DNA of 33,806 nucleotides, from positions 1-33,806 of the forward strand of contig JACQOP010000124.1 of assembly GCA_016202485.1 (NCBI GenBank). Reading direction: 5' to 3'. This document shows positions 20,430 through 26,538 of this stretch, in pieces. Made by a program: the position numbers and the translations under genes. Positions within the stretch are counted from its first letter, which is position 1. Each line of letters starts with the position of its first letter. The notes beneath the pieces were generated by a model. That model searched no databases, had not been told where the DNA came from, and was given only the letters and a program-made list of their open reading frames with translations. Origin of the DNA: Chloroflexota bacterium (GTDB taxonomy: Bacteria; Chloroflexota; Dehalococcoidia; Lucifugimonadales; JACPCL1).

Positions 20430-23400
20430 ATGGAAACTGCATTTCTCACGAGTTTCCAGGTCCCCCGTTTACGAAGCGACCATATCCAACGTCCCAGGCT
20501 CCAGGAAAAGCTTCGGAACCCAGGGGGACAACGGCTTATCATCGTGGCAGCCCCTGCTGCCTACGGTAAGACCACGCTGCTTTCTCAGTTTGCCCATGAG
20601 TCCCAGCGCCCCCTTGCCTGGTATTCCGCTGACCCATCCGAAGCAGACCTGAAGACGTTCTTCCACCGGGTCTTCGCTTCTCTGGCGTCTGTTTTCCCTG
20701 AGCTTACCTCCCCTCCAGAACTGGACTCGTCAGAGGCCCCCGCGACCCTTGGGAATACCCTGGTCGTGAGGCTGGTAAACCAGCTCCACCTGCAGAGGGG
20801 AGGGGGCGTCCTTATTTGGGACAACTTCCACCACCTGAACGCCAACCCTGAGATCATTGCGGCGGTGGACTCCTTTGTGGCCCACATGCCCGATGACTTC
20901 ACCCTTATCCTGGGGACCAGGGTTATCCCCAGCCTGCCCAGCCTCCAGCGATTTCTGGGATACCGGGAAGCTACGCTGATTCTCCCGCAGGAGTTGTGTC
21001 TCACGGAGGAAGAGACTGCCTTGCTCCTGAGCACCATCCGTGGCCGGGAAGTCCCCAGTGAACTAGTGAAACAGCTCCAGGAAAAGGCCCAGGGCTGGAT
21101 GGGCGGCATCCTTGCCCTGGAACTGAACCCGGAGCACCCTGAGCTGGACGACGCTGCTTCAGAGGAGGTGCTCCGCTATTTTGCCGAGTCCTCCCTCACA
21201 CCCATTCCGGAGCAGCAGCGGTGGTTCTTCAGGCTGACCAGTCTGCTGCCCCACCTCAGCGTGGAGGCATGCAATAGCGTCCTGCGTATTACCGACAGCG
21301 AGGGCTTTCTTCATAACGCATACTCAAAAACAGGGTTTCTGTCGCGCATAGACGGGCCCTCGCCGGTCTACAAATGGCATGACCTCATCCGTGAGGGCCT
21401 GGAGAAGCAGTTCCGCCTGGAAGACCCAGGGGCCTATGCCTACATGGCGAAGGCCACAGCCCTGTACTGCAGGGAAACAGGGAGCTTTGAGCAGGCCATT
21501 TCTCTTTTCTTCAAGACCGGTGACTTTGAAGAGGTTGCCCTCTTGCTGCTGCTGAAGGGAGATGCCTACATACGCGCCGGCAAGTGGCGTCTCCTGGAAA
21601 GCTGGCTCACCCAGCTCCCGGAGCAGACCCAGGAGGAGCAGCCCCAACTGCTGGAACTGCGAGGGCGTCTGGCCACCCGGCTGGGAGAGAAAGAGCAGGC
21701 GGTGGCCTACTTCAACCGCGCCATTGCATCGGCCACAGAGCGCCAGGACGACAAGCTGCAAGCCAGGTTGCTGATCACCCGCAGCGCAGCCTTCCGGCTC
21801 ATGGGGTATGAGGCAGAGGCAGAGGCAGACGCCCGGGCCGCCGTCCAGCTCCTGGAAGACGCCAAGGGGTGTCAGAGCGACCTCATACGGGCGCTGCGGC
21901 AACTGGCGACCATACACGTTTACAAAGGGAAGTATGAGGAAGCCGAACAATGGTTTAGGAAGGCCCTGGAACTCCTACGGTCGCACCCCGATGAATACGA
22001 GAGCGCTCTCTTGAATGGCGCTGCCGGCTGGGCCTACCTGGAGCTTGGCAGGATGGGACTGGCCCAGAGCCATCTGGAAAAGGCGGCCCACGTCTGGAAG
22101 CGGACGGGCAACCAGGCCCAGCTTGCAGTGAGCCTCAACAACCTTGCACTGCTCTGGCACCGCCAGGGAGACCTGGAAAAGGCCAGGGAGCTCCTGAACG
22201 AAGCGCTCCGCCATGCCCAGGAGAGCGCCTATACCCGCTTTGAGGCCATTATCCAGGTGAGCCTAGGGGATGTGGAACGGGACTGCGGGGAACTTGATGC
22301 AGCCCTGGAGTGGTACGAAAAGGGCCTTGCCCTGGCGGGGCAGGTGGTGGAGGCCAACCTGATCAGCTATACAACCGCTGTAGTGGGGGACACCTACCGG
22401 TTGAAGGGAGAAATGGCCAGGGCAGAGGTGTTCCTGGACCAGGCCAAGAGCCTGGCCAGTTCGCAGCAGCAGTCCTACGAGTCGGCCCTTGCCTCCATGT
22501 ACTCCGGCCTTCTGGCGGCCTCCAGGGGCGACTTGCAGACCGGAAAAGCACATCTGCAGGAAGCCGGGGCCATCCTTGAGGAAAACACCAATGCCCATGC
22601 CAGGGCACTGCTCTCCCTGTACAACGCAGAGGTAGCGTTCTTTGCCCGGGACATCAAAGGCGCAAAGGCCCACCTGGAAGGGCTGTGCAAGGAATGCACA
22701 GAGATGGGCTATTGGGGCTTCTTGAAAGCAGAGGCCCTCCGCGCCCCCGCCCTCTTCGCCTGGGCGGCGACCACTATCATCGGAGACGGTTTCTTCCATC
22801 AGTTTGCCGGCGCTCCAGGCTCTGCCGACAGGGGCCAGCTTGCGTCCTCTCCCGCCGGCCGCCTCTCCCTGAGCGTCCGGGCCTACGGCTTCGGGACGCC
22901 CCGGGTCTACCTGGGGAACGAGCTCATCGGCTCCAATGTGTGGGAAAGCCCCCGGGCCACGGAGCTCTTCTTCTACCTCCTCGCCAAGGAAGGCCCAGTC
23001 TCCCGCGACCAGGTCATTGTGGACCTGTGGCCCGAGACCAGCCCCACCGCCGGCTACAACAACTTCCACACCAGCATCCGCCGTGTGCGTAACGCCATCC
23101 ACCCCTCGGCCGTCATCTTTGAGTCCGGGGGCTACGCCATCAACCCCGACCTGGACATCTGGTTTGACCTGCAGGAGTTCTTTAATAAGGTCCGCGCCGC
23201 CGACCACATGCCCGCGGGCACAAGGGAGCGCGCCGACGCCCTGGAGGAGGCCCTTTCCCTGTGCAGCGGCACGCTCTTTGAGGACTTCTACTCCGAGTGG
23301 GCCGAGGCACTGAAGCGCAAGGCCGATACCCTGTACCTCAGCGCCCTGTCCAATCTTTCGGGCTTCTACACCGCCCAGAAAGACTTCTCCCGGGCCCTGC

Positions 23401-23609
23401 AGTTCCTTGAGCGTGCGGCCAGCTACAACCAGTTGGAAGAGACCGTCGTCATGGAGACGATACGGTGCTACATTGCCAAGGGCGATGGGGTCGCCGCCAT
23501 GAAGACCTACGAGCAGTACCGGGAGACGCTGGAGACGGAGCTTGACGCTGAGCCTGCGCCTGCCCTGCAATCGCTCCGAAAGGAAGCCATGAGACTGCTG
23601 GTCCGATAA
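20430..23609 (+). CDS. STAND-ATPase/TPR transcriptional regulator with C-terminal winged helix and BTAD domain (MalT-SARP hybrid)
   Basis: 1059 aa. Residues about 15-330 form a MalT-like P-loop ATPase: Walker A APAAYGKTTLL (41-51) and Walker B-like VLIWDNFHHL (127-136), then a winged-helix-like end (YKWHDLIREGLEKQF). Residues about 370-790 are tetratricopeptide repeats (for example EQWFRKALELL, ALEWYEKGLALA). Residues about 810-905 are an OmpR-type winged helix (WESPRATELFFYLLAKEGPVSRDQV, then NNFHTSIRRVRNAI), and about 915-1059 the bacterial transcriptional activation domain typical of SARP proteins. Such proteins integrate an effector bound by TPR/STAND parts and activate promoters at direct repeats. 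The ATG at 20430 has GAAGG just upstream. It is divergent from the exopolysaccharide genes and upstream of a peptide operon with SARP-like direct repeats. Confidence 0.92.
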   Translation: METAFLTSFQVPRLRSDHIQRPRLQEKLRNPGGQRLIIVAAPAAYGKTTLLSQFAHESQRPLAWYSADPSEADLKTFFHRVFASLASVFPELTSPPELDSSEAPATLGNTLVVRLVNQLHLQRGGGVLIWDNFHHLNANPEIIAAVDSFVAHMPDDFTLILGTRVIPSLPSLQRFLGYREATLILPQELCLTEEETALLLSTIRGREVPSELVKQLQEKAQGWMGGILALELNPEHPELDDAASEEVLRYFAESSLTPIPEQQRWFFRLTSLLPHLSVEACNSVLRITDSEGFLHNAYSKTGFLSRIDGPSPVYKWHDLIREGLEKQFRLEDPGAYAYMAKATALYCRETGSFEQAISLFFKTGDFEEVALLLLLKGDAYIRAGKWRLLESWLTQLPEQTQEEQPQLLELRGRLATRLGEKEQAVAYFNRAIASATERQDDKLQARLLITRSAAFRLMGYEAEAEADARAAVQLLEDAKGCQSDLIRALRQLATIHVYKGKYEEAEQWFRKALELLRSHPDEYESALLNGAAGWAYLELGRMGLAQSHLEKAAHVWKRTGNQAQLAVSLNNLALLWHRQGDLEKARELLNEALRHAQESAYTRFEAIIQVSLGDVERDCGELDAALEWYEKGLALAGQVVEANLISYTTAVVGDTYRLKGEMARAEVFLDQAKSLASSQQQSYESALASMYSGLLAASRGDLQTGKAHLQEAGAILEENTNAHARALLSLYNAEVAFFARDIKGAKAHLEGLCKECTEMGYWGFLKAEALRAPALFAWAATTIIGDGFFHQFAGAPGSADRGQLASSPAGRLSLSVRAYGFGTPRVYLGNELIGSNVWESPRATELFFYLLAKEGPVSRDQVIVDLWPETSPTAGYNNFHTSIRRVRNAIHPSAVIFESGGYAINPDLDIWFDLQEFFNKVRAADHMPAGTRERADALEEALSLCSGTLFEDFYSEWAEALKRKADTLYLSALSNLSGFYTAQKDFSRALQFLERAASYNQLEETVVMETIRCYIAKGDGVAAMKTYEQYRETLETELDAEPAPALQSLRKEAMRLLVR

Positions 23610-23624
23610 TCCAGGAAAACCCTG

Positions 23625-23660
23625 AAAAGAGGCCCGCCATCCGATTGGCGGGCCTCTTTT
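23625..23660 (+). terminator. Rho-independent terminator after the BTAD regulator
   Basis: A 15-bp perfect stem including the flanking A/T pairs (23625-23639 with 23646-23660), core GAGGCCCGCCA/TGGCGGGCCTC, has a 6-base loop and a run of T residues. It begins 15 bases after the regulator stop, so the following peptide gene needs its own promoter. Confidence 0.93.
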
Positions 23661-23676
23661 TACCCTCCTCCAGCTT

Positions 23677-23710
23677 TGTAAGTGTTCTGTAAGTGCCCGT
23701 GTTTTATGAT
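23677..23710 (+). promoter_or_regulatory. Candidate SARP/BTAD-type promoter: 11-bp-period direct repeats plus -10 box
   Basis: TGTAAGTG occurs twice without mismatch at 23677-23684 and 23688-23695, so the repeats lie one helical turn apart (8 bp plus 3). A good -10 hexamer, TATGAT, is at 23705-23710, 9 bp after the second repeat. The position 17 bp upstream of it (23682-23687, GTGTTC) is no recognisable -35 and is straddled by the repeats. SARP activators are known to bind 11-bp-spaced direct repeats about 8 bp from the -10. That, plus the BTAD gene immediately upstream, supports an activator-dependent promoter. Binding itself is inferred. Confidence 0.65.
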
Positions 23711-23746
23711 ACGGCCAACAACTTAGAACAAGCTAAGCAACGCAAC

Positions 23747-23753
23747 AAGGAGG
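23747..23753 (+). promoter_or_regulatory. Strong ribosome binding site of the 39-aa peptide gene
   Basis: AAGGAGG is a full match to the anti-Shine-Dalgarno complement, 4 bases before the ATG at 23758. It is among the strongest sites in the window, which argues that the short frame is translated. Confidence 0.8.
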
Positions 23754-23757
23754 CGTC

Positions 23758-23877
23758 ATGAACAGGTCCAAGAAGTTCCTTTCCAGCAAGGCAGCCAGGG
23801 TTGTCCTGACCATCATGGGGGTTATCGCCCTCATCGCAGCGGTGCTCGCCCCCGGCGGCGACGGCGGCGACGACTAA
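23758..23877 (+). CDS. 39-aa single-helix peptide with basic N-terminus and Gly/Asp C-terminus
   Basis: ATG at 23758, TAA at 23875-23877, with its own promoter-like sequence, a full ribosome site, and a hairpin just after the stop. Layout: a cationic N-region (MNRSKKFLSSKAAR, residues 1-14), a hydrophobic segment (VVLTIMGVIALIAAVLA, 15-31) and an acidic, flexible tail (PGGDGGDD, 32-39). This is the three-part layout of a signal peptide or a single-span micro-protein with its tail outside. V-L-A would suit signal peptidase at -3/-1, but a Pro at +1 normally blocks cleavage, so it may stay membrane-bound. No family is recognised. Its place directly behind a STAND/TPR/BTAD regulator makes a signalling or envelope-stress role possible. 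Confidence 0.75.
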   Translation: MNRSKKFLSSKAARVVLTIMGVIALIAAVLAPGGDGGDD

Positions 23878-23893
23878 TTCTTGCCAGTCCCCT

Positions 23894-23929
23894 GTGTGCC
23901 TGTGGGTAAGAGGCGACCCACAGGCACAC
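23894..23929 (+). other. Strong intercistronic hairpin without T-tract
   Basis: A perfect 14-bp inverted repeat, GTGTGCCTGTGGGT (23894-23907) and ACCCACAGGCACAC (23916-23929), has an 8-base loop. It lies 16 bases after the peptide stop and 27 bases before the DUF5317 start. It is followed by CCCCCAACTATCC, not by T residues, so it is not a classical intrinsic terminator. It could stabilise the upstream peptide mRNA, mark a processing site, or partly terminate, giving more peptide than downstream membrane protein. Confidence 0.7.
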
Positions 23930-23956
23930 CCCCCAACTATCCAATCTGAGGTCCTC

Positions 23957-25042
23957 ATGGGCGGTCTTCCACAGAAGATAGTCATCTCTATCAGCCTGCA
24001 CCCGAGAATGCTGGGGCTGGCTTTGTTGGGCTTTGCCCTGCAATACTTCCTGGTCAAAGAGATGAACGACCCCTTTGCAGCAAAAGCAGTCCTTGGGATT
24101 TCCCACTTTTTACTTTTGGCTGTCATTGTTGTAAACCGGAGGAACCTTGGTTTTCTCGTGGTGGGCTTGGGATTCGCATTGAACCTCATCGCTATCTATG
24201 GCAACGGCGGGCTTATGCCCATCGCGCCCCAGGCCGTCGTCAACCATGGACTGGCCGGCAGCAACACGGAGCTGGTGGAAGGCTCTCGCTTCGGGGCCAA
24301 GAACGTGCTGCTAGACCCTGCCTCCACACGCTTCTATGTCCTGAGCGACCGCATACCCACGACCTTCCCCAGGCCATTCCTGGTCTCGGTTGGGGACATC
24401 GTTGCGCTGGCCGGCCTGGGCATCATCCTGGCGGGGCAGATAGCAGCCCTCGCACGGAAGGATAGCGCCCCTGTACCGGACCGGACCAGCCCTGCACCAG
24501 GACACAGGCGGTGGCTGCGGATGGCGTCCCGCTGGCGCTCCCGGGTGTTGAATGCTCACGCCGCCATGCAGGAGACACGCTTCCTTGAGGAGTGGCAGGA
24601 GCACTGGCTCAAGCTGACAGGCGCTATAAGGAGCTACGTGACGGCGGAGAGCACGGCTGGGCGGCAGGCCGCCGAACGGCAATTCGCCAGAGAACGCACC
24701 TGGCTCCTGAGCCGCCGCTGGCGGTTCAACGACGTTTGGAGGCCCTATCAGCACTGGTCGGGAGGCAGCGCCATAGGACGCTGGCACCCGCTGGATCCGC
24801 GCCAGCTAGTGTTCTGGGGCCCCAGCGACCCTTATGCCGGCATCTACGAAGGGAACTCCATTGCCGCCGTGGTCTCTTATGGGCAGGTGCGAAGCGAACA
24901 GGACATGCAACTGCTGATGGAAGCGCTGGACCTCCTGGACAGGGAAGTAGCGCATATCTTTGCTAACAGCCAAAGGAAAGGGCGGGGCAAGGCTATTCAA
25001 GGCGGCAGCATTACATCTCACGGCTCCGAGGCGCTCCCATGA
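23957..25042 (+). CDS. DUF5317-family membrane protein with a C-terminal soluble extension
   Basis: 361 aa from the ATG at 23957 (GAGG 5 bases upstream); the frame is open to 23894 through the hairpin, but that stretch is unlikely to be translated. The N-terminal about 180 residues have 4-5 membrane helices with the DUF5317 pattern: an NRRNLGFLVVGLGFALNL segment, the conserved NGGLMPI turn, and PRPFLVSVGDIVALAGL before the last helix. The C-terminal about 180 residues are soluble and rich in Arg/Trp/Glu (RFLEEWQEHWLKL, TWLLSRRWRFNDVW), a part I do not recognise. The function of DUF5317 is unknown. The stop overlaps the next start (ATGATGA), so the two membrane proteins are translationally coupled. 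Confidence 0.8.
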   Translation: MGGLPQKIVISISLHPRMLGLALLGFALQYFLVKEMNDPFAAKAVLGISHFLLLAVIVVNRRNLGFLVVGLGFALNLIAIYGNGGLMPIAPQAVVNHGLAGSNTELVEGSRFGAKNVLLDPASTRFYVLSDRIPTTFPRPFLVSVGDIVALAGLGIILAGQIAALARKDSAPVPDRTSPAPGHRRWLRMASRWRSRVLNAHAAMQETRFLEEWQEHWLKLTGAIRSYVTAESTAGRQAAERQFARERTWLLSRRWRFNDVWRPYQHWSGGSAIGRWHPLDPRQLVFWGPSDPYAGIYEGNSIAAVVSYGQVRSEQDMQLLMEALDLLDREVAHIFANSQRKGRGKAIQGGSITSHGSEALP

Positions 25043-26049
25043 TGACTCCCACCGTCCATACTAGCCGCCGGGGTGTCGCCATTTTAGGCGCAAGGTTTGG
25101 GCTGGGACTGGCCATTGGAGGGGCTGCCCTGTGGTTTCTGCTGAGCCGGATTGAGTGGCCTGCTACCCTGGCGTATCTGGCGAGGATTTCCCTCGTGGAA
25201 ATGGCTGCATCGCTCTGCCTGGTCGGTTTCGGCAGCTTCCTGGGGGCGATGCGTTGGAAGCTGCTGCTGGGAACGGACGGAATAAGCCCTGGGCGACTCT
25301 TTTTCGTCCAGAACACCGCTCACGGGGTGGACGTGTTCAGCCCCCTGCGCATCTTCAGCATCCCGGTCCAGGTCTTGATGCTGACTAAGAGCGACGGGCT
25401 GCCCATCCAGCGGGTGTTCGCTTCCATTGCAGGGAAGCGGTTCATGGACGCTCTGGTTATGGGCGGCGTTGTGGTCGTTGGCGCCCTGCTTACCCACAGC
25501 CTCTGGCCGATGCTTGCCTTCGCCTTGCCCCTTACCACCTGGGCGGTCGCGGCCTGGGGCAGTGTGCTGACTATCGGCAAGGCCCTGGCCGCCAAACCAG
25601 CGCCCCAACCTGAGCCTGCTACCCCTACCCCTCCATCCTTGAGACAGGGCCGTTCGCGCCTGCAACTGCTAGGCGTCACTCTCTCGTTGACCCTTGCAAG
25701 CTGGATGGCCATCGGCCTGGCGGGGTGGGTGCTGGCTTCTTCCGTGGGGCTAGAGATAGGTGTGTGGCACGCCATTCCCATAGCAGTGGGCACAATCCTG
25801 ATAGCGGGGGCGCTACCCGGGCTTCCGGCAGCGTTTGGCCTGTTTGAAGCTACCTTTGTCCATCTCATGGGTTTGCTGGGGTACAGCGCAGACCAGGCCC
25901 TTGCCGCAGCCCTCTTCTTCCATGCAGTCCTCATCCTGCCCGCTCTTGGATGCGCAGTGGTCGCCTTCTTCAAGGAGTTGCCGTCGCCCCTACAGATCCT
26001 GTCGCAAGTGCACAAGGCGGGCCTAGTCCCCAGGCATGGAGGCTCATGA
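25039..26049 (+). CDS. Lysylphosphatidylglycerol-synthase TM-region-like (UPF0104/AglD-type) membrane protein
   Basis: 336 aa with about 8 membrane helices. Family features: the early GSFLGAMRWKLLLG (about residues 66-79; the conserved R-W-x-x-LL), and near the C-terminus LPGLPAAFGLFEATFVHLMGLLGYSADQALAAALFFHAV, which matches the 'P-G-G-x-G-x-x-E' core of the family, with the glycines partly replaced by Pro/Ala. There is no synthetase domain, so this is the stand-alone membrane part, thought to move or handle lipids in the bilayer. A Pro-rich cytoplasmic loop (KPAPQPEPATPTPPS) lies mid-protein. It is coupled to the DUF5317 gene by a 4-bp overlap. The substrate is unknown. Confidence 0.85.
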   Translation: MMTPTVHTSRRGVAILGARFGLGLAIGGAALWFLLSRIEWPATLAYLARISLVEMAASLCLVGFGSFLGAMRWKLLLGTDGISPGRLFFVQNTAHGVDVFSPLRIFSIPVQVLMLTKSDGLPIQRVFASIAGKRFMDALVMGGVVVVGALLTHSLWPMLAFALPLTTWAVAAWGSVLTIGKALAAKPAPQPEPATPTPPSLRQGRSRLQLLGVTLSLTLASWMAIGLAGWVLASSVGLEIGVWHAIPIAVGTILIAGALPGLPAAFGLFEATFVHLMGLLGYSADQALAAALFFHAVLILPALGCAVVAFFKELPSPLQILSQVHKAGLVPRHGGS

Positions 26050-26103: not shown

Positions 26104-26538
26104 ATGATATCAGAGCAATTTTTCCGAACACTGCTTGTCGCCGATGACGACGAGGCAAATCTTTTGCTGTTGAAAGAGACCTTCAGGGACGACGGACGCT
26201 ACAAACTCCTCGTCGCAAAGGACGGCCCTGCTGCTCTTGAACTGGCGCTCAGGGAACGACCGCAGGTCATCTTGATGGACGTCATGCTCCCCGGCATGGA
26301 CGGGTGCGAGGTGTGCAAGACCCTGCGTGGTATACCGGAAACTGCGTCTGCCAAGATTGCCCTGGTGAGCGCAATGGCCCAGGAAAGCGATATCAGCCGC
26401 GGCCTCAGGGCGGGCGCCGACCAGTACATCGTAAAACCGTACAACATTGTTGCACTTCTGCACCTGGTTGACCGGTGGTTCAGCGAGCTTTCCAGCCAGA
26501 AGAGCTACCAGACCGACCGCCTTTCTTGCTATCCATAG
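26104..26538 (+). CDS. Single-domain CheY-like response regulator
   Basis: 144 aa, one receiver domain with no output domain. All phosphorylation-site residues are present: the acidic pair in VADDDEANL (D14-D16), the phospho-acceptor in VILMDVMLPGMDG (D59), the switch Ser in IALVSAM (S89) and the lysine in QYIVKPYN (K111). No histidine kinase is encoded nearby, so its partner is elsewhere. It lies 54 bp after the LPG-like gene on the same strand and may be co-transcribed; only a weak AGG ribosome site is visible. The 18-residue Ser/Gln/Tyr-containing C-terminus (from SELSSQKSYQ) is beyond the domain. Confidence 0.88.
   Translation: MISEQFFRTLLVADDDEANLLLLKETFRDDGRYKLLVAKDGPAALELALRERPQVILMDVMLPGMDGCEVCKTLRGIPETASAKIALVSAMAQESDISRGLRAGADQYIVKPYNIVALLHLVDRWFSELSSQKSYQTDRLSCYP

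Follow-up and report, generated by a model that had tools for sequence, protein, structure and literature searches.

Among described systems, AfsR-afsS of Streptomyces resembles the locus analysed here in that a regulator combining a STAND NTPase, TPRs and a SARP domain acts on a target gene for a small protein (PMC10936776, PMC6988585). The AfsR operator, known as the afs box, consists of two 11-bp repeats at -40 to -30 and -29 to -19 with a poor -35 element beneath them, and the binding of an inducer to the AfsR sensor has been stated to be an open question (PMC10936776). In SARP promoters, the repeats lie 11 or 22 bp apart, the 3' repeat is about 8 bp from the -10 box, and a poor -35 is overlapped. 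AfsS itself contains short repeats, which we do not use as an argument. The SARP-LAL regulator PimR acts at pimM, a gene of the PAS-LuxR type within an antibiotic cluster, through the heptamer CGGCAAG with 4-bp spacers. The RRNPP systems (Rap, Rgg, NprR, PlcR, PrgX, ComR) resemble our locus in the placement of a TPR receptor gene beside a gene for a small, apparently membrane-targeted propeptide, and in the tandem precursor copies found in some modules. MalT of Escherichia coli shares the N-terminal NTPase and the TPR-like sensor.

How does our locus compare with these systems? The window, that is, the whole 33,806-nucleotide stretch of Chloroflexota DNA that was analysed, comes from a metagenome-assembled genome of 1.87 Mb that is 77% complete, and contains the following features.

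20430-23609, + strand: STAND NTPase-TPR regulator P0001, 1059 aa, with a C-terminal winged helix and BTAD domain; the proposed activator (ORF, Pfam, structure match).
23623-23662, + strand: intrinsic terminator, placed after the regulator gene and ahead of the promoter (folding energy of the hairpin -32.1 kcal/mol, z -8.2, U run at its end).
23677-23687, + strand: upstream 11-bp repeat unit TGTAAGTGTTC (sequence; conservation seen in a congener and at one further site).
23688-23698, + strand: downstream 11-bp repeat unit TGTAAGTGCCC (sequence; likewise conserved).
23705-23710, + strand: -10 box TATGAT (sequence; TACACT and TATCAT at equal distance in the other two sites).
23717, + strand: predicted transcription start, from the -10 box.
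23747-23753, + strand: Shine-Dalgarno sequence AAGGAGG (sequence).
23758-23877, + strand: 39-aa peptide MNRSKKFLSSKAARVVLTIMGVIALIAAVLAPGGDGGDD with a basic N-terminus, one hydrophobic helix and a short Gly/Asp tail (orthologs in a congener).
23957-25042, + strand: membrane protein with DUF5317, encoded after the peptide in the putative operon (Pfam PF17248, E 1.4e-20; order kept in relatives).
25039-26049, + strand: LPG_synthase_TM-family membrane protein, whose gene overlaps that of DUF5317 (Pfam PF03706, E 2e-30).

The regulator P0001 matches the Pfam families BTAD (E 1.4e-16), TPR_MalT and AAA, and its last 259 aa match structures of AfsR (E 4e-10) and EmbR across the winged helix and BTAD domain. 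The NCBIfam MalT model matches residues 9-554 with an E of 8e-52, which is below the model cut-off, and the AfsR model is far below its own. The protein begins with a MalT-like NTPase, continues with a TPR array and ends with a SARP-type output domain; the OmpR-type winged helix followed by BTAD is thus present, but at the C terminus, unlike in classical SARPs. AfsR has its SARP domain at the N terminus, a NOD in the centre and the TPRs at the C terminus, and because this order is reversed in P0001, we regard the latter as AfsR-like and not as an AfsR ortholog. The locus differs from AfsR-afsS also in its target, a single-helix peptide and DUF5317 instead of AfsS, in its repeat sequence and in its phylum. 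RRNPP receptors have 250-500 aa, whereas the regulators considered here have 1059-1100 aa with a STAND NTPase and a SARP domain, belong to another phylum and bind peptides only putatively (PMC10075063). MalT differs in having a LuxR-type HTH and a sugar inducer, and the LuxR-type relatives found here are without a peptide module. The module is therefore neither AfsR-AfsS, by its domain order, nor RRNPP, by receptor size and architecture, and would work like a mixture of both.

Between the regulator gene and the peptide gene, TGTAAGTG occurs twice, at 23677-23684 and 23688-23695, with TTC between the copies (period 11), and the 9-bp spacer CCCGTGTTT leads from the second copy to TATGAT. An earlier note on this DNA had described perfect direct repeats at an 11-bp period ending 9 bp before this box, close behind a BTAD gene and without a consensus -35. 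The sequence agrees exactly with the first point; the BTAD gene has its last base at 23609, which leaves 67 bp to the first repeat; and no consensus -35 or sigma-70-type promoter is called in 23500-24000. The 39-aa ORF at 23758-23877, the terminator and the phylum-wide module described below were not part of that note. If transcription starts at 23717, the upstream unit spans -40 to -30 and the downstream unit -29 to -19, exactly the coordinates of the afs box, and as in AfsR-afsS the two 11-bp direct repeats take the place of a good -35. The period is 11, and the -10 box lies 9 bp from the 8-mer and 6 bp from the 11-bp unit; SARP-type promoters are already known, and the window promoter fits this type. 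Its heptamers are also spaced by 4 bp, as at pimM, and TTGTAAG agrees with CGGCAAG at four of seven positions, whereas PimR has its operator outside the -35 region. The hairpin at 23623-23662 is visible by folding and was not called by a simple terminator scanner; because it stands with its U run between the stop at 23609 and the repeats, the latter probably open a new transcription unit. On its own, the repeat says little, since about 0.9 perfect 8-mers at 11 bp are expected per shuffled window; a repeat followed by TA...T 8-10 bp downstream appeared in 0 of 60 shuffles. The weight of the evidence lies in the conservation, in a congener and more widely.

The earlier note had envisaged a search of the genome and its relatives for such repeats followed by a -10 box, and this search returned one more site in the same genome and one in the congener G001. 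The repeat pattern (at most two mismatches) occurs twice in the 1.87-Mb genome and the layout including the -10 box is present at both sites, with none for the reversed-pattern control in either case; genus-wide, the layout scan gave three sites (two in the window's own genome, one in G001) against none for the reversed control. The second site, TGTAAGCGCCTTGTAAGTG-N9-TATCAT (G000:C33:14650-14683, - strand; about 1487-1520 in L002), precedes a stand-alone LuxR-type HTH ORF at a contig end, and no counterpart was found in the congeners. PimR activates the LuxR-type gene pimM, and the second site may act likewise. The G001 ortholog has TTGTAAGGCTTTTGTAAGGGGCCGCCTCCTACACT at the equivalent place, and behind it come three peptide genes in tandem and DUF5317. 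Common to all three sites is AGCTTTGTAAG-N5-TGTAAG; the TGTAAG form is missing in the congeners G002 and G003, and G002 has a diverged pair. With only two such sites in the assembly, the regulator seems to be dedicated to local activation and not to act globally.

The 39-aa peptide ORF is the first gene of the predicted transcription unit. It is conserved and is under purifying selection, with pS of 0.70-0.74 and pN of 0.20-0.25 between the window peptide and its congener orthologs. The 4-bp overlap with the DUF5317 gene makes the LPG_synthase_TM-family gene a possible last member of the operon. A structure model of the DUF5317 protein (mean pLDDT 71) had no PDB match with E < 0.001, so we did not infer its function, and our search found no paper mentioning the family, which is weak evidence because few subscription papers were covered.

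Direct repeats with an 11-bp period often follow BTAD genes in the window's order, with sequences such as TGTAAG, TGTAAC, GTGAGCA and TTGGTTA. Regulators of about 1080 aa in other families have repeats downstream, together with a 30-48-aa peptide and DUF5317. The Anaerolineae type has TTGAAGC at a 12-bp period, which falls outside the spacing of SARP promoters, and still has 11 bp between heptamer and -10 box. Downstream of BTAD regulators, perfect 7-mer repeats peak at periods 11 and 12 only. At period 11, they were found in 8 of 22 regions of the window's order (0.34 expected) and elsewhere in 13 of 60, with 21 of 60 at period 12 (about 1 expected); these rows are partly dependent, because some loci come from a single genome reached by two routes (e.g., L131 and L149), and many of the Anaerolineae sequences are related. 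The counts are conservative, because the automatic search was limited to 300 bp and missed visible repeats (e.g., L132, L140, L199). LuxR-type controls gave a smaller excess from few cases (2/21 and 3/21 at periods 11 and 12, 0.2-0.4 expected); control loci with perfect repeats at these periods include L201 and L221. Some BTAD regulators had neither repeats nor a peptide. The named relatives recovered were nearly all Chloroflexota, one of them labelled Dehalococcoidia. The window probably belongs to the class Dehalococcoidia.

A scan of named genomes with an Anaerolineae alignment yielded 50 STAND-TPR-BTAD regulators, and 22 LuxR-type relatives served as controls. A short peptide gene lay downstream of 30 of the 50 BTAD regulators, as counted by inspection, and of none of the 22 controls (Fisher p 3e-7). 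The 40 hydrophobic peptides compared, hydrophobicity being one selection rule, all share one plan: the N-terminus carries a net positive charge, a single helix ends in small residues, and 5-18 residues follow as a tail. The helix end is A-x-A-like in 40/40 under a lenient rule, often with proline next. Proline after an A-x-A-like site is unfavourable for signal peptidase I, and release of the tail is uncertain for this reason. Three of the 30 modules carry tandem-repeat peptide precursors instead: that of Thermanaerothrix daxensis GNS-1 has four PQASGDISR units, and those of two Anaerolineales MAGs have four NQPLGGGIGT and four HPVGGGVGTGP units. Summed over pairs of tandem units, there are 29-31 synonymous and 0-1 nonsynonymous differences; purifying selection on the units is thus nearly complete and maintains the repeated peptide as such. 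The T. daxensis unit resembles helix-type tails such as APSDGGGISR (0/500 shuffles); the likeness of the other two units to tails did not exceed that due to composition, so the argument from tails applies to L173 only. A search of 400 genomes for the L188 tandem peptide gave one match, apparently intergenic noise. Of the 30 peptide modules, 20 have DUF5317 nearby; it was seen neither near a BTAD regulator that lacks a peptide nor near any of the three tandem precursors, and it may thus be a partner of the helix type alone. In at least eight modules, the peptide occurs with no DUF5317 inside 3 kb. ORFs with weak to clear matches to the RiPP-like Os1348/NHLP family (L173 9835-10137, L188 9609-9824, L195 9648-9863, L168, L189) adjoin peptide genes, mostly tandem-repeat ones.

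Do the repeats change together with the protein encoded beside them? Across 33 modules, repeat distance correlated with recognition-helix distance (r 0.64; registers assigned by eye, one-base shifts allowed), and the partial Mantel correlation given BTAD-domain distance was 0.48 (p 0.0002); once the helix is known, BTAD distance adds little (0.16). An FH-type helix is common to distant regulators (window, L142, L177), whose repeats read TTGTAAG or TGGTAAG. No other computational result speaks as strongly as this co-variation for the adjacent protein as the reader of the repeats.

Judging from these sequence comparisons, the adjacent regulator very probably binds the repeats and activates the promoter. 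The SARP/BTAD-type promoter proposed in the earlier note is supported by the layout kept in the congener, by the co-variation over 33 modules and by the afs box register, and we think with good confidence that the element is an AfsR-type operator-promoter within an activator-promoter-peptide module resembling AfsR/afsS. Two copies of P0001 would lie side by side from -40 to -19, with their winged helices on the 11-bp units; the bound pair would substitute for a -35 element and set RNA polymerase on TATGAT, and, following the AfsR literature, the dimer would contact sigma region 4 and recruit the polymerase. Chance repeats without function would fit the expectation of roughly one perfect 8-mer at 11 bp in each shuffled window, but this explanation is extremely improbable in view of the second site, the period peaks, the co-variation and, as a strong counter-argument, the conservation in the congener. 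A PhoB/OmpR-type response regulator might bind the repeats instead of the adjacent BTAD protein, since proteins of this kind, too, recognise direct repeats spaced by one turn; AfsR and PhoP sites overlap at afsS (PMC6988585), and a receiver-domain gene is present at 26104-26538. However, Pfam showed no DNA-binding domain for this receiver protein, the repeats change in step with the recognition helix of the BTAD protein, and their enrichment is higher behind BTAD genes than behind LuxR-type relatives; we consider a response regulator very unlikely.

Activation by P0001 would yield a short operon from about 23717 encoding the 39-aa peptide, DUF5317 and probably a second membrane protein. What the peptide might do is harder to say. 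By analogy with ComR-ComS and Rgg-SHP, its C-terminal tail might be released outside the cell as a signal and possibly as the inducer of the TPR sensor, closing a positive feedback loop, an idea to which we give a little less than an even chance. More tentatively still, the Chloroflexota might have a widespread non-RRNPP form of signalling, in which STAND-TPR-SARP receptors sense a peptide cut from an adjacent precursor (single-helix or tandem-repeat) that they themselves activate. It is conceivable, if also clearly short of an even chance, that the peptide is a small membrane protein working as a partner of DUF5317, for instance as one subunit in a membrane complex, under SARP-type control only and without being a signal: DUF5317 accompanies 20/30 peptide modules and no peptide-less BTAD regulator, the segment KINRQHIQ before the helix is conserved in Anaerolineae peptides, and the proline after the A-x-A-like site runs contrary to signal peptidase I cleavage. 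On the other hand, DUF5317 is missing from the 3 kb around the peptide in at least eight modules, helix-less tandem-repeat precursors replace the peptide in three modules, and the Thermanaerothrix unit is similar to helix-type tails. The product could also be an AfsS-like small regulator inside the cell, as is the 63-aa AfsR target AfsS (PMC6988585), or a natural product synthesised on the ribosome and then modified, given the ORFs weakly matching the Os1348/NHLP RiPP family next to tandem precursors, in either case not a signal sensed by the regulator. We regard this as unlikely, because the basic N-terminus and helix suggest membrane insertion with the tail outside, and an unsystematic look identified no modifying enzyme beside the modules.

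If the signalling reading is true, the peptide inducer becomes a candidate ligand of AfsR-type TPR sensors. The modules would then offer a candidate class of inducers for such sensors, encoded beside the receptor, with one example in T. daxensis GNS-1. A single promoter motif becomes a recurrent regulator-operator-peptide unit in a phylum for which we found no comparable system in the literature searched: neither a relevant paper joining Chloroflexi, BTAD and quorum sensing nor a closer system was found, which is weak evidence, because few subscription papers were covered. It is possible that this regulator-site-peptide unit, recurrent across the Chloroflexota, is a peptide-signalling system not previously described. 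DUF5317 gains a genomic context, and the correspondence between repeat and helix is a first step towards a recognition code of SARP-type proteins.

We also observed several variants of this arrangement. Two peptide-DUF5317 pairs, L139 (G463:C9) and L091 (G109:C263), have intact repeat promoters and no BTAD gene directly upstream, and their regulator may act in trans. Downstream of regulators L159-L162, the next gene encodes an ABC-transporter substrate-binding protein and not a peptide, and no clear repeat promoter was found there. In L193 (Tengunoibacter tsumagoiensis), CTGCGAAC repeats with period 11 and a -10 box precede a NusG-like gene, with no peptide. In L182 and L202, a CCGGCGA-type repeat promoter and a short non-helical ORF (MRQIRNSIKW.. 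or MKNRTRNAIKW..), both duplicated in tandem, lie downstream of the regulator, and the helix-type peptide after these ORFs ends in AAQSPLF or AAQSPLI. Finally, a second class of wHTH-BTAD regulators (L009 1474-1776; L022 about 1374-1139, - strand; L025 about 514-281, - strand; L075, L077 and L197), several of them with a PAS-like N-terminus, has TGTAAG/TGTAAC-type repeats downstream, and the next gene encodes a 70-100-aa protein with the motif SFVMRLWLEP that matches no known family.
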